DNA of 64,000 nucleotides from contig NZ_CP165782.1 in assembly GCF_000513895.2 (NCBI RefSeq), forward strand, positions 868,001-932,000, written 5' to 3'. Numbering within the stretch: the stretch's first letter is position 1; the number at the start of each line of letters is the position of its first letter. The translations under genes were made by a program, and so were the position numbers. The notes beneath the pieces were generated by a model. It ran no database searches, was not told the origin of the DNA, and saw only the letters and a list, made by a program, of their open reading frames with translations. This DNA is from Ensifer sp. WSM1721 (GTDB lineage Bacteria > Pseudomonadota > Alphaproteobacteria > Rhizobiales > Rhizobiaceae). Below, piece by piece: positions 44,059 to 47,877 of the stretch.

Positions 44059-44381
44059 GTCCGGCCTTTTGCCCGGACTTTCGGGGGAAGGCAAGAGGTT
44101 CGCGAGGCCCTCCTGTCTCCCGCGGCGGTAAGCACGCGCCGGGCGATTTCAAGGGGTGATTGTTATGGATTCATGGAAAACGTGTTCCGATAATCAATAC
44201 TTCTAAACCTCATGATGAGGCACCACATGTTTCGTCGGAGAGCGCGGAATGGCTCTTCTGACCCCTTGATCGGATCGGGCGCCCATCGGCCAGGCCACCG
44301 CGTCTCGACTGAAAAGTTCCGGTCACAGGTGGTCTCGACGAAACCGTCGTTCAAACGAACGACCGATCAGGAGTGATGATC
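44059..44381. other. 323-base gap before the tandem small secreted genes
   Basis: It holds a palindrome cctcatgatgagg (44208-44220) and a leader hairpin gtcgttc-aaac-gaacgac (44346-44363) that ends five bases before the AGGAG of the next gene. A small minus-strand open frame here (44164-44354) looks like a chance frame. Confidence 0.6.
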
Positions 44382-44657
44382 ATGAGGAACGCAATCCACA
44401 CCGCTCTCGCCGCTATTCTTGTAGCCACTGCCGTTCTCGGCGGCGCATCCGCTGCCTTCGCCGGCGGTAGCTACTATGAGGGCGTCAGCGACAAGCCGCT
44501 CTTCACCGAGCGTGCTCCGAAGGCAGCCAACGAGGCCGCTGTTCGTCGCGAAAATGGCTCCATCGACCGCACATCCACCGGTTCGGTAGGCTATTCCTCG
44601 CAGCCGAACCTGATCTCCGGCGGTGAGGGCGAGTATTACCAGGGCCTGACCCGCTAA
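44382..44657 (+). CDS. Small secreted protein with GGSYYEG motif, paralogue 1
   Basis: 91 residues. A clear signal peptide (AIHTALAAILVATAVLGGASAAFA, cleavage after residue about 27) precedes a mature part of about 65 residues starting GGSYYEGVSDKPLFTER and ending GGEGEYYQGLTR. The mature part has no cysteine. It is paralogous to the next gene. ATG at 44382 has AGGAG 8 bases upstream; a GTG at 44373 and an ATG at 44376 are in frame. I do not recognise a named family with confidence (a rhizobial DUF is likely); the function is unknown. Confidence 0.82.
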   Translation: MRNAIHTALAAILVATAVLGGASAAFAGGSYYEGVSDKPLFTERAPKAANEAAVRRENGSIDRTSTGSVGYSSQPNLISGGEGEYYQGLTR

Positions 44658-44678
44658 CGGCCGCGCCCAAAGGCAACA

Positions 44679-44710
44679 TCACGGGGCTCGCAAGTCCCGT
44701 GACCACTTTT
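44679..44710 (+). terminator. Hairpin between the two small secreted genes
   Basis: A 7-bp stem tcacggg / cccgtga with a 10-base loop is followed by ccactttt. It could be a leaky terminator that sets the ratio of the two paralogues. Confidence 0.45.
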
Positions 44711-44727
44711 CAGCAGGGAACAATTGC

Positions 44728-45012
44728 ATGAAAAAGTCCATCGCAGCCCTTCTCGTTGCGACTGCCTTTGTAGGCGGCGCCTCGACCGCCAATGCCGGCG
44801 GCAGCTATTATGAGGGTGCCAGCTCTGCGCCGCTCTTCACCGGGCGAGCCGCCGCTTCTGCCGGGACCGGCGTTTCGGCCGGCACGGCCGATCGCGGCGA
44901 TTACTATGCCGGTGTCGATAACAAGTCCGTCGATGCGACGGCAACCGGCGCGATCGCCGGTGGAAGCACGGCAGTGAAGCTCCTCGGCGGAAGCACTGAG
45001 GACAACCGCTGA
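44728..45012 (+). CDS. Small secreted protein with GGSYYEG motif, paralogue 2
   Basis: 94 residues. The signal peptide (KKSIAALLVATAFVGGASTANA) is followed by GGSYYEGASSAPLFTGRA, nearly identical in layout to paralogue 1. A second aromatic motif DYYAGVDNKS and a Gly/Ala/Thr-rich end follow. It starts 70 bases after paralogue 1 and ends ahead of a strong terminator, so the two form a bicistronic unit of duplicated genes. Location is expected to be periplasmic; the role is unknown. Confidence 0.82.
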   Translation: MKKSIAALLVATAFVGGASTANAGGSYYEGASSAPLFTGRAAASAGTGVSAGTADRGDYYAGVDNKSVDATATGAIAGGSTAVKLLGGSTEDNR

Positions 45013-45072
45013 AGTCAAGCGAGCGGGCGTGCTCCTCCCACACGTGCCGCTCGGCCCCGCAACGGCGGAATG

Positions 45073-45106
45073 GCCCGGTCCCGATTGTCGGCCCGGGCCT
45101 TTCTTT
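45073..45106 (+). terminator. Terminator after the small secreted genes
   Basis: ggcccgg pairs with ccgggcc around a 13-base loop and is followed by TTTCTTTTCC. Confidence 0.75.
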
Positions 45107-45180
45107 TCCACCCGACCGGTGCTGCCAATTGCCGCATCAGCCGATGCGGATATCGCTATTTTTAGCTTCGCATTGATACT

Positions 45181-45195
45181 TGACTATTATAGTCA
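45181..45195. promoter_or_regulatory. TGA-N9-TCA palindrome, candidate iron-responsive operator
   Basis: TGACTATTATAGTCA is a perfect 15-base palindrome, arms of seven around a central T. It overlaps CTTGAC (45179-45184), which matches the -35 of S. meliloti housekeeping promoters; an A/T-rich -10-like segment (taatatg) lies at 45200-45206. The rhizobial iron-responsive operator bound by RirA has consensus TGA-N9-TCA, which this fits. Binding would block the promoter of the downstream fusion gene when iron is plentiful. Confidence 0.55.
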
Positions 45196-45219: not shown

Positions 45220-47877
45220 ATGGAGGTGACTTTGGGCGCTGGCGATTATTCGATGTCCCCGTTGTGTGTTGCAAGTCTGGCCGCGCGGGGCGATCGACCG
45301 GCGCTCCTCTATCCCGGCGGACGAACGGTGAGCTACCGGGAGCTTGCCGAGCGCGTCGCTCGCCAGGCTTTGCAGTTGCGCGGCGCGCGCAGCCTGGTAA
45401 TGCTGGAGGCGGAGCTTTCGGAGCATTCCATCGTCGCTTATCTTGCGGCGCTTGAGGCCGGGCACGCCGTCGCCATGCAGGGACAGGCTTCCCTTGACAG
45501 GGACCGCGACGTCTTCAGGCCGGAATTTTGCTACCGCCGCTTCGATGGTCGCTGGCGGATGGAGCGATCGGAGGGAGACACGGTCGCTCCCCACCCTGAT
45601 CTCGCAGTGCTGCTCTCGACGTCCGGCAGCACCGGGCACGGGAAAAGCGTGCGGCTTTCCCGGATGAACATTCAATCCAACGCATCGTCGATTGCCGAAT
45701 ATCTCGGCCTGACGGCGGCGGATAGGAGCTGCCTTATCCTGCCGCTCCACTATTCCTACGGCCTTTCCGTGCTGAACGCCCACCTCACAGTCGGTGCGAG
45801 CCTCTACATCCCCGGTGGCTCCATTCTCGATGAGGGCTTCCTCGACGGGCTTACCGCAAGCGGCAGCACCAATATCTCGGGCGTTCCCTATTCTTACGAC
45901 CTTCTCGAAAAGGTCGGCTTCCGGGACCGGTATTTCCCCCATCTGCGCTTGATGACGGTTGCCGGCGGGCGCTTGTCGCCCGGCACGGTCCGCCTATACA
46001 ACGAGCACCTCTCGGTGCGCGGCGCTCGTTTTTTCGTGATGTACGGCCAGACCGAGGCCACGGCCCGAATGGCCTATATGCCGCCCGAGCGACTCCGAGG
46101 CAGGGAAGATCGGATCGGCCTCGCCATACCGGGCGGCAATCTGACGATAGAGGATGAGGACGGGCGGCCGGTCACCGGGCCAGATCAGGCCGGCGAGCTT
46201 GTTTATCGCGGCCCTAATGTGATGATGGGCTACGCCTCCTCGCGCGCCGACCTCACGCGCGGCGCCGAGCTTTCGGAACTCAGAACCGGCGATCTTGCCA
46301 TGAGGGACGCGGATGGTTTCTTCCGCATCGTCGGGCGTACAAAGCGCATATCGAAGATCGCGGGGCTTCGCATCGGACACGATAGCCTGGAAGCGGCGCT
46401 CGAACGGCAGGGCATCGCCGCCGCCGTCGTCGGCAATGACGCCGAGATTCATGCCTACTATTCCGGTCAAAGCGAAGCCGAAGAGATCCGTCGGCTTCTG
46501 GTCGAGGCAAGTGGACTAACATTGCTGCAGATCAGGGCCTCTCGGGTCAGCGCCCTGCCGCGCCTGGAATCGGGCAAGATCGATTATCAGGCACTTCGCA
46601 GTCGCGCGAATGGCAGACTTTCCGTTGCCGCCGAAAATCAGAGCGTCGAGGCTCTTTTCAATCAGCTTTTCTACCCGAAAAAAGTTCGGCCGGAGGACAG
46701 TTTCCTGTCGCTCGGCGGCGATTCACTACGCTTCGTTCAGCTTTCGATCGGTCTTGAAAGGATACTGGGAGAGGCGCCAGAGACTTGGGAGAGGATGCCG
46801 GTCGCATCATTGGCGGCGTCCGGGCGGCGCGAGAGCAGGTGCCGTCAGATCGGCACCGATCTCCTGATCCGGGCGCAGGCCATCCTGCTCGTCGTTCTGC
46901 ACCACGAGACCTTGTGGCCCATCCCGGGCGGATCAGCGGCGATGGTCATTCTCGCCGGCTACGGCCTCGCCCGGTTCCAGAGCCATGTCCTGCTCTCGGG
47001 CGCGGTGCTGAAGCTCCTGCGGCCGCTGGCGCAAATCCTCGTTCCCTACTACCTGATCGTGGCGGGCTACACGCTTGCCTGGGGCGAGGTGCCCTGGGCC
47101 TCCGTCTTCCTCGTCGGCAATTTCGGCTTCGCCGATCCCGAGCGCCACAGCATGGTGCCCTATCTCTACTGGTTCATCGAAGCCTATTGCCAGATGTTGC
47201 TCGTGTTTGCGGCGCTCTTCGCAGTGCCCTTCGTCAGGCGCGGGGCGATGGCGAGGCCTCTTGCCACCGGGATGGGGCTTTTCGCTGCGGCGTTCGCCGC
47301 GCGTTTGGCGCTGCCGCTTCTCGTGGACATCGGCAACCGCCAGATATTCACCCTACCATGGATCTTCTACATGGCAGTTCTCGGCTGGTGCGCGGCAATG
47401 GCCGAAACATGGCGCCAGCGCTCAGCCGTGATGCTGGCGGGCGCGGGGGTGTTTCTTTTCCTCGGGCTCTATGAAGGCGTGTGGATTGGCACGAAGATCA
47501 AATACTTGCTGCAGATCGCGGTTCTCGCCGCGCTGCTCTTTCTGCCGCGCATTCGGGTGCCGCGATGGAGTACTCAGTTGATCCTGCCGCTCTCCGCCGC
47601 GGGTTTTCATGTCTATATCCTGCATCGCTTCGTGCCGGAGCTCCTGCTCCCACCGCTGCAGCCGTTCCTCCCTCCGCTCGTCTTCGCCCTTTGCTCCATC
47701 CTCGGAGGCATCCTGCTCGGGGTCGCGGCCTGGTTGGCGCAGCGCCAGCTACTCAAATGGCTCGCCGAGGAGGGCAGCGCGATCGAGTGGCGAAGCAGGC
47801 TTAAACACTGGCTTGCCTCAGATCGCCCACTTCTCGCCCTCGGTCCGCAGGAAGAAAACCAGGTCCAGCGTCAGTGA
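45220..47877 (+). CDS. Adenylation–carrier–membrane acyltransferase fusion protein
   Basis: 885 residues in three parts. (1) Adenylation domain, residues about 12-480: A3 motif TSGSTGHGK (134-142), A5 YGQTEA (275), A7 RTGDL, A8 GRTKRISKIAGLRIG and the catalytic lysine in ESGKID (Lys453). (2) A carrier domain, about 485-545, with LGGDSL (Ser502) for phosphopantetheine. (3) A membrane domain, about 547-860, with eight to ten hydrophobic helices and acyltransferase-3 features (RAQAILLVVLHHE; GYGLARFQ). It should activate a small acid, tether it and transfer it to an acceptor across or at the membrane, like DltA, DltC and DltB in one chain. GGAGG at 45222-45226 lies inside the ATG-started frame, so TTG at 45232 or ATG at 45253 may be the real start. 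Substrate unknown. Confidence 0.85.
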   Translation: MEVTLGAGDYSMSPLCVASLAARGDRPALLYPGGRTVSYRELAERVARQALQLRGARSLVMLEAELSEHSIVAYLAALEAGHAVAMQGQASLDRDRDVFRPEFCYRRFDGRWRMERSEGDTVAPHPDLAVLLSTSGSTGHGKSVRLSRMNIQSNASSIAEYLGLTAADRSCLILPLHYSYGLSVLNAHLTVGASLYIPGGSILDEGFLDGLTASGSTNISGVPYSYDLLEKVGFRDRYFPHLRLMTVAGGRLSPGTVRLYNEHLSVRGARFFVMYGQTEATARMAYMPPERLRGREDRIGLAIPGGNLTIEDEDGRPVTGPDQAGELVYRGPNVMMGYASSRADLTRGAELSELRTGDLAMRDADGFFRIVGRTKRISKIAGLRIGHDSLEAALERQGIAAAVVGNDAEIHAYYSGQSEAEEIRRLLVEASGLTLLQIRASRVSALPRLESGKIDYQALRSRANGRLSVAAENQSVEALFNQLFYPKKVRPEDSFLSLGGDSLRFVQLSIGLERILGEAPETWERMPVASLAASGRRESRCRQIGTDLLIRAQAILLVVLHHETLWPIPGGSAAMVILAGYGLARFQSHVLLSGAVLKLLRPLAQILVPYYLIVAGYTLAWGEVPWASVFLVGNFGFADPERHSMVPYLYWFIEAYCQMLLVFAALFAVPFVRRGAMARPLATGMGLFAAAFAARLALPLLVDIGNRQIFTLPWIFYMAVLGWCAAMAETWRQRSAVMLAGAGVFLFLGLYEGVWIGTKIKYLLQIAVLAALLFLPRIRVPRWSTQLILPLSAAGFHVYILHRFVPELLLPPLQPFLPPLVFALCSILGGILLGVAAWLAQRQLLKWLAEEGSAIEWRSRLKHWLASDRPLLALGPQEENQVQRQ

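Follow-up and report, generated by a model that had tools for sequence, protein, structure and literature searches.

The Dlt system, by which teichoic acid is D-alanylated, consists of three or more proteins, including a separate carrier and DltB, an enzyme of the MBOAT family, and uses D-alanine. In Vibrio cholerae, glycinylation of lipid A is performed by AlmE, AlmF and AlmG, corresponding to a separate ligase, a carrier and an acyltransferase of another family, with glycine as the substrate. The adenylation domains specific for alpha-amino acids (DltA, NRPS) possess an A4 Asp which binds the alpha-amine. The Ent siderophore NRPS is under iron control, and importers of the FbpA type are commonly regarded as transporters of ferric ions, not of siderophores. 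Acyltransferase-3 (AT3) enzymes typically acylate extracytoplasmic sugars and are considered to transfer acyl groups outward to them (PMC9558356). Their R-X10-H signature has been reported for OafB, in which simulations indicated that Arg74 of the RXXR motif contacts the 3'-phosphate of CoA (PMC9833829). In the retrieved text of the AT3 review, 'adenyl' and 'AMP-binding' occur 0 times, and the passages found name fusions with SGNH and alanine racemase (PMC9558356); in the literature passages on AT3, no precedent was found for transfer from a carrier to an AT3 enzyme.

We analyzed a window of 64,000 nucleotides of the Ensifer sp. WSM1721 genome (contig NZ_CP165782.1, positions 868,001 to 932,000), which contains a gene encoding an adenylation (A) domain, a carrier (T) domain and an AT3 domain in one chain, referred to as the A-T-AT3 fusion (Table 1). 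A first-pass annotation made from the sequence had described a Dlt-like system in a single polypeptide, without a well-described prototype. This agrees with the open-licence papers, in which no named function for the gene was found; the Gram-negative counterpart that we can name is the three-protein AlmE/AlmF/AlmG set.

Table 1. Position of the A-T-AT3 fusion, its domains and key residues, and the upstream palindrome in the window.
Feature	Position	Strand	Basis or remark
A-T-AT3 fusion protein, 885 aa	45220..47877	+	adenylation-carrier-acyltransferase-3 in one chain
Adenylation domain, ~residues 13-465 (bounds approximate)	45256..46614	+	PF00501 1.3e-42; A-domain structures top the fold search
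A3 core TSGSTGHGK, residues 134-142	45619..45645	+	alignment of 79 sequences
A4/pocket stretch HYSYGLS, residues 177-183	45748..45768	+	alignment to 3wvn
Arg283, after YGQTEATA in A5	46066..46068	+	invariant, 79/79
Lys453, A10 catalytic lysine	46576..46578	+	79/79
Carrier (T) domain, ~residues 470-533	46627..46818	+	PP-binding 0.0061 at residues 489-517; A-PCP structures among fold matches
Ser502, carrier attachment serine in LGGDSL	46723-46725	+	79/79
AT3 membrane acyltransferase domain, residues 538-848	46831..47763	+	fold model, R-X10-H
Arg551 and His562	46870-46872 and 46903-46905	+	together R-X10-H of AT3
RirA (IRO) type palindrome TGA-N9-TCA, TGACTATTATAGTCA	45181..45195	.	39 bp before start codon

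Conservation was studied in an alignment (A2) of 79 sequences, comprising the window and 78 of the 88 located relatives. The fragments L074, L076, L078 and L090, the duplicate L069, the near copies L053, L054, L059 and L066, and L114, whose start was misread, were omitted from A2; a further alignment (A3) was additionally devoid of L102. No variation was seen in A2 at T134, S135, G136, G139, Y178, Y180, G181, S183, R283, D358, K379, K453, S502, H562, W651 and Y799, while R551 (Lys in L046) and H802 were each found in 78 of the 79 sequences. The residues expected of an ANL adenylation domain, i.e. the A3 P-loop (T134/S135/G136/G139), the A7 Asp (D358) and the A10 lysine (K453), are thus present throughout, and the complete adenylation domain and the LGGDSL carrier noted in the first-pass annotation were both confirmed. 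The match of the carrier domain to Pfam PP-binding is below the Pfam cut-off; its attachment serine is invariant, and residue 501 of the GGDS motif is Asp in 70 sequences and Asn in 9. Loss of the A10 lysine or of the phosphopantetheine serine in homologues, named beforehand as a reason to abandon the assignment, was encountered in none of the 79. In line with another of its claims, no condensation or thioesterase domain was found: a Pfam search over the whole protein at E <= 1 matched AMP-binding and PP-binding only, the remainder being the AT3 domain. Since the catalytic residues of all three parts are invariant, the activating, carrying and transferring functions look co-selected.

The C-terminal domain was modelled with the HGSNAT/AT3 fold in the predicted structure, and the fold and profile correspond to those of PF01757, including the R-X10-H motif in TM1. 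A fold other than that of acyltransferase-3, the other outcome that would have told against the first-pass annotation, was therefore not obtained. The AT3 fold match was not returned by Foldseek alone, and a profile search of this domain against PDB sequences gave 0 matches at E <= 1. At the RXXR position on TMH3, the protein contains K598-L-L-R601 (KLLR); in this gappy part of the alignment, Arg is found in 26/79 sequences at column 598 and in 43/79 at column 601. The KLLR sequence and its variability in the family would fit a carrier donor, devoid of the CoA 3'-phosphate. Taken together, these results bear out what was initially proposed on the order of the domains, on the intactness of the catalytic residues and on the logic of a carrier serving a membrane acyltransferase.

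Residue 179 is Cys in 45 and Ser in 34 of the 79 sequences, and the A4 Asp of 3wvn aligns with Ser179 of the fusion; the Asp typical of alpha-amino-acid A domains is therefore missing from the whole family. By sequence, the closest A domains of known structure were 3wvn/3wv4, which we take to be SlgN1, an NRPS; after them came mostly oxalyl- and malonyl-CoA ligases and, in between, a single peptide synthetase. In the alignment to 3wvn, Arg283 is paired with an Arg, within a stretch that contains gaps. In that to oxalyl-CoA synthetase 5ie0, it is paired with a Leu, and the His of this enzyme with the adjacent Ala282, a near but inexact likeness. By NRPS numbering, the positions of residue 179 and Arg283 presumably both belong to the A-domain pocket. 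With the A4 Asp missing and Arg283 invariant, the pocket is better suited to a small non-amino acid than to an amino acid of the Dlt kind; the substrate may be a small acid that lacks a free alpha-amine and perhaps bears a second charged group. The argument is weakest here, because the first sequence match is an NRPS A domain and because Arg283 misses the His of 5ie0, which also weakens the hint of a dicarboxylate. The constancy of the pocket code across phyla suggests one common substrate. Gellan-type glyceryl transfer was also considered as a clue to the acid, two relatives being located in exopolysaccharide clusters, but was rejected, as the retrieved passages of PMC11340318 and PMC5399355 contained no gene for glyceryl transfer.

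The domain order was searched in genomes, as the first-pass annotation had advised, and the fusion was found in all of the 24 genomes of the genus (Sinorhizobium/Ensifer), in scattered other Proteobacteria and in Actinobacteria. Among 16 genomes of other families, one (G033) contained a relative. At least 80 named loci were recovered, from Ensifer, Sinorhizobium, Rhizobium, Mesorhizobium, Shinella, Phyllobacterium, Leisingera, Marinobacterium and many Actinobacteria, the actinobacterial genera among the matches listed including Mycobacterium, Streptomyces, Lentzea and Arthrobacter. Counting the membrane domain alone, matches were obtained in 10/297 genomes from the order (E <= 1e-8, all in frames of at least 840 aa), in 56/345 genomes from the class of a mycobacterium (E <= 1e-30, 6 candidates scored per genome) and in 6/296 genomes from the order of Rhizorhapis (E <= 1e-20, 8 candidates scored per genome), one of these six being a 328-aa frame without other domains. 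In a quick tree, an actinobacterial clade stood apart from most proteobacterial rows, and the exopolysaccharide-linked L077 and L094, together with two long-branched rows, were placed on the actinobacterial side of the midpoint. One scan of viral contigs with a single protein query revealed no relative.

The predicted RirA-type site of the window was found again in each of the 19 upstream regions examined (the window and 18 of 23 congeners), with conserved arms and a variable centre. Such a box was present within -160..+30 of the gene in 20/27 Rhizobiales loci, leaving 7 without one, compared with 46/425 other genes, a contrast whose Fisher test, like that of the actinobacterial boxes below, ignores kinship and is overstated by related loci, and in which a box counted for a background gene may in some cases also be that of a tested gene. 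TGA-N9-TCA is common on its own (30 occurrences in the window), so that the weight rests on conservation and on this contrast. The 27 loci do not include L048, L049 and L050, which belong to other families of the same order, nor L069, a duplicate of L043; the box is at +1 of the longest ORF in L045 and L066 and at -21 of a fragment in L074, and L076 and L090, which have no box, are fragments. The scanned loci of Rhodobacterales, Gammaproteobacteria, Rhizorhapis and unplaced MAGs yielded no RirA-type box. A Fur box was also looked for in 17 proteobacterial loci, and none was convincing, the best match having 5 or more mismatches. TGA-N9-TCA is the motif proposed for RirA and occurs in 5 of the 10 RirA ChIP-seq peaks of S. 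fredii; the retrieved text on these peaks does not name the A-T-AT3 gene (PMC8822346). Judging from its upstream site, the gene of this strain would be made under iron scarcity.

In the window, DinB, GST and ndk come after the fusion, and ndk is SMc00595 in S. meliloti (PMC2912261); on the basis of this gene order and of locus numbering, not of sequence, SMc00592 is the probable S. meliloti orthologue. Its values in Table 2 of PMC2848241 (-0.44, 1.47, 1.30, -0.23) are close to those of hmuV (-0.06, 1.48, 1.53, -0.12) and hmuT (-0.34, 1.49, 1.39, 0.09), and in this one transcriptome they resemble those of the haem- and siderophore-uptake genes (hmu/fhu/exb) and of the rhizobactin genes. What the array profiled was a fadD mutant in swarming conditions, and not the response to iron starvation itself; two of the four SMc00592 values are slightly negative (PMC2848241).

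Iron boxes of another type were observed in Actinobacteria. A DtxR/IdeR-type box (<=3 mismatches) was located within -250..+60 of the A-T-AT3 gene in 21/44 loci and within -250..+60 of a ferric-SBP gene in 22/30, so that 33/44 loci had a box before one or the other and 11 had none, compared with 14/617 other genes. At <=4 mismatches, the 44 loci contained 48 boxes, against 2 in one base-shuffled copy. The first-pass annotation had suggested looking for conserved neighbours, and an SBP gene like one of two ferric-binding seeds was found within 2.7 kb in 32/88 loci, 30 of them among the 44 actinobacterial ones, in several orientations. These SBPs were identified by likeness to the two seeds, and the PDB comparison covers the seeds only: the first matches SfuA/YfuA over its length (about 1e-128), and the second, encoded beside the Rhizobium giardinii copy, belongs to another ferric-binding group (1y9u, 8e-142). 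A frequent actinobacterial operon consists of SBP, fused permease, ATPase and A-T-AT3; in other arrangements, the SBP part and the A-T-AT3 gene are divergent, or the SBP gene is downstream. The flanking genes were called by a codon-position script and may be wrong. Two predicted regulator types and two SBP groups thus agree in suggesting an iron link.

In the annotated proteobacterial loci, no conserved biosynthetic partner was found and the neighbours are mostly unrelated between genera, which makes the A-T-AT3 gene look self-contained. Rhizobium loci L044, L045, L065 and L066, which are close kin, share the same downstream genes; in L045 (10183-15122, a Rhizobium-family genome), a cyclase-like gene and YcaO and TfuA genes come after the fusion. 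A second AMP-binding ligase gene directly follows the fusion in Methylobrevis (L043:10252-11811). In a locus of the sphingomonad order (L137:6005-14979), two TonB-dependent receptor genes flank the fusion copy, whose frame has one TAG. A divergent gene just upstream of the fusion in L060 (8675-9760; cluster c27, 357-392 aa, GGDEF by Pfam in L060) has the same place in L052, L053, L054, L056, L058 and L059, i.e. in seven Ensifer/Sinorhizobium loci; it was not found in L051 or L057, nor in the window. In the latter, about 1.1 kb (44100-45180) separates the ABC-F gene from the fusion, and the ORF list shows one ORF of at least 100 aa inside it (44710-45111, - strand, 133 aa). The loci L073 (Marinobacterium) and L079 (an Oceanospirillaceae MAG) have the common stretch AATAGGACTTACTC within 120 bp upstream of the fusion. 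In two relatives, the gene lies in an exopolysaccharide cluster: L077 adjoins rmlB, rmlD and welK, and L094 adjoins a polyprenyl glycosylphosphotransferase gene and is directly followed by a separate AT3 gene. Both clusters also contain AAA/STAND ATPases. These two contexts imply that the chemistry need not concern iron.

The reading that we favour, with a confidence falling just short of even, is that the fusion is an enzyme of iron starvation which attaches an activated acid to an acceptor on the outside, probably for iron binding, acyl activation and export being combined in one chain. The cytosolic A domain would form the adenylate of a small carboxylic acid, which probably lacks a free alpha-amino group and is of the hydroxy, keto or dicarboxylic type, and would load the acyl group onto the phosphopantetheine of the carrier domain in the same chain. 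This carrier, and not CoA, would be the acyl donor to the AT3 domain, through which the acyl group would cross the membrane and reach an extracytoplasmic acceptor, be it a sugar, a lipid or a small molecule. In the iron-regulated species this acceptor may be a glycan or a lipid, because L077 and L094 suggest that the same chemistry serves polysaccharide acylation. The most likely product would be a surface or secreted ferric ligand aiding uptake of the FbpABC/SfuABC type and perhaps, in Gram-negatives, also of the TonB type. By analogy with the Dlt and Alm systems, passage from A domain to carrier to AT3 would be the simplest path. At the level of sequence, the proposal is based on the domain anatomy, the catalytic residues, the placement of predicted iron boxes in two phyla and the linkage to ferric-binding protein genes, from which we infer that expression depends on iron in this strain, as well as the acid class, donation by the carrier, the direction of transfer, the acceptor and iron binding by the product.

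Envelope remodelling would account for the same anatomy, the acid being a protective or charge-changing substituent on LPS, lipid or exopolysaccharide, with iron starvation acting only as a trigger and the product gathering no iron. The typical AT3 acceptors, extracytoplasmic sugars (PMC9558356), and the exopolysaccharide clusters of L094 and L077, which both keep Arg283, agree with it, but a mere stress trigger is hard to square with a ferric-SBP linkage that is found in 30 of the 44 actinobacterial loci in varied orientation, and there is no polysaccharide gene among the eight annotated neighbours in the window; we consider this explanation unlikely. The iron boxes would also suit an AT3 domain that acylates a soluble siderophore or xenosiderophore, thereby making or modifying a diffusible chelator. 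The first-pass annotation had indeed listed a siderophore as a possible acceptor, and had missed both the iron boxes and the ferric-transporter neighbours. Against this role, importers of the FbpA type are generally regarded as carriers of ferric ions and not of siderophores, and no siderophore biosynthesis gene was seen among the annotated neighbours, which cover part of the flanks. The values of SMc00592, which follow those of rhizobactin and siderophore-uptake genes (PMC2848241), favour siderophore tailoring, but the gene is present in 24/24 genomes of a genus in which siderophore types vary between Sinorhizobium strains (PMC8822346), and such a role appears improbable.

The original model, in which an amino acid is transferred to an envelope polymer as in the Dlt system, draws on a part list equal to DltA-DltC-DltB apart from the membrane enzyme, on the presence of DltA among the fold matches (3e7w, rank 26) and on the NRPS A domain (3wvn) as the best sequence match. 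The membrane enzyme is an AT3 and not a member of the MBOAT family of DltB, and the amine-anchoring Asp is replaced by Ser or Cys in every sequence of the alignment. Because of Ser/Cys179 and Arg283, amino acid activation is ranked below our leading model and is regarded as very improbable. The pocket, as read here from alignments, thus disfavours the amino acid substrate of the first-pass annotation, while its logic of activation, tethering and membrane transfer holds.

If the iron-starvation reading is taken one step further, a single polypeptide would activate and tether a common organic acid, move it through its own AT3 domain and fix it on an outer acceptor, holding Fe(III) for FbpABC-type importers, a one-gene form of iron gathering common to Rhizobiales and Actinobacteria; we put this forward as a possibility that is somewhat doubtful. 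If true, iron acquisition would gain a further route, at the surface or encoded by one gene, that needs no siderophore NRPS and no NRPS-independent siderophore synthetase, and the fusion would be the first carrier-fed AT3 enzyme. Because a single chain unites the donor, the carrier and the membrane enzyme, it would also provide a simple model for how AT3 proteins move acyl groups across membranes. Carried by the entire genus sample, and with its membrane domain in about one sixth of the mycobacterial-class sample, the gene looks part of the iron response.

Compared with known systems, the A domain has TIGR03098 (acyl ligase, exosortase A systems) as its best NCBIfam match, with 156 bits over residues 125-460, far below the cut-off of 592 bits, and this model covers the ligase only. 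OafB and human HGSNAT use acetyl-CoA, whereas the fusion has KLLR at the RXXR site. The A-T modules of siderophore NRPS (EntE-EntB fusion, EntF) are alike in architecture and their structures are among the fold matches, but the fusion lacks the condensation or thioesterase domain of an NRPS chain and has a membrane acyltransferase after the carrier. AlmE/AlmF/AlmG resembles it as a Gram-negative set of ligase, carrier and acyltransferase which modifies the envelope, whereas a single fusion with an AT3 domain and iron boxes is found here. With DltA/DltC/DltB, it shares activation as an adenylate, tethering to a carrier and handover to a membrane acyltransferase; it differs in that carrier and enzyme are fused in one chain in place of a separate carrier protein and an MBOAT DltB, in its AT3 fold, in the missing A4 Asp and in its iron boxes. 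The carrier-to-acyltransferase logic of Dlt holds and its substrate is probably wrong, and the iron link, suggested by predicted regulation, by neighbouring genes and by one transcriptome, is the new point.
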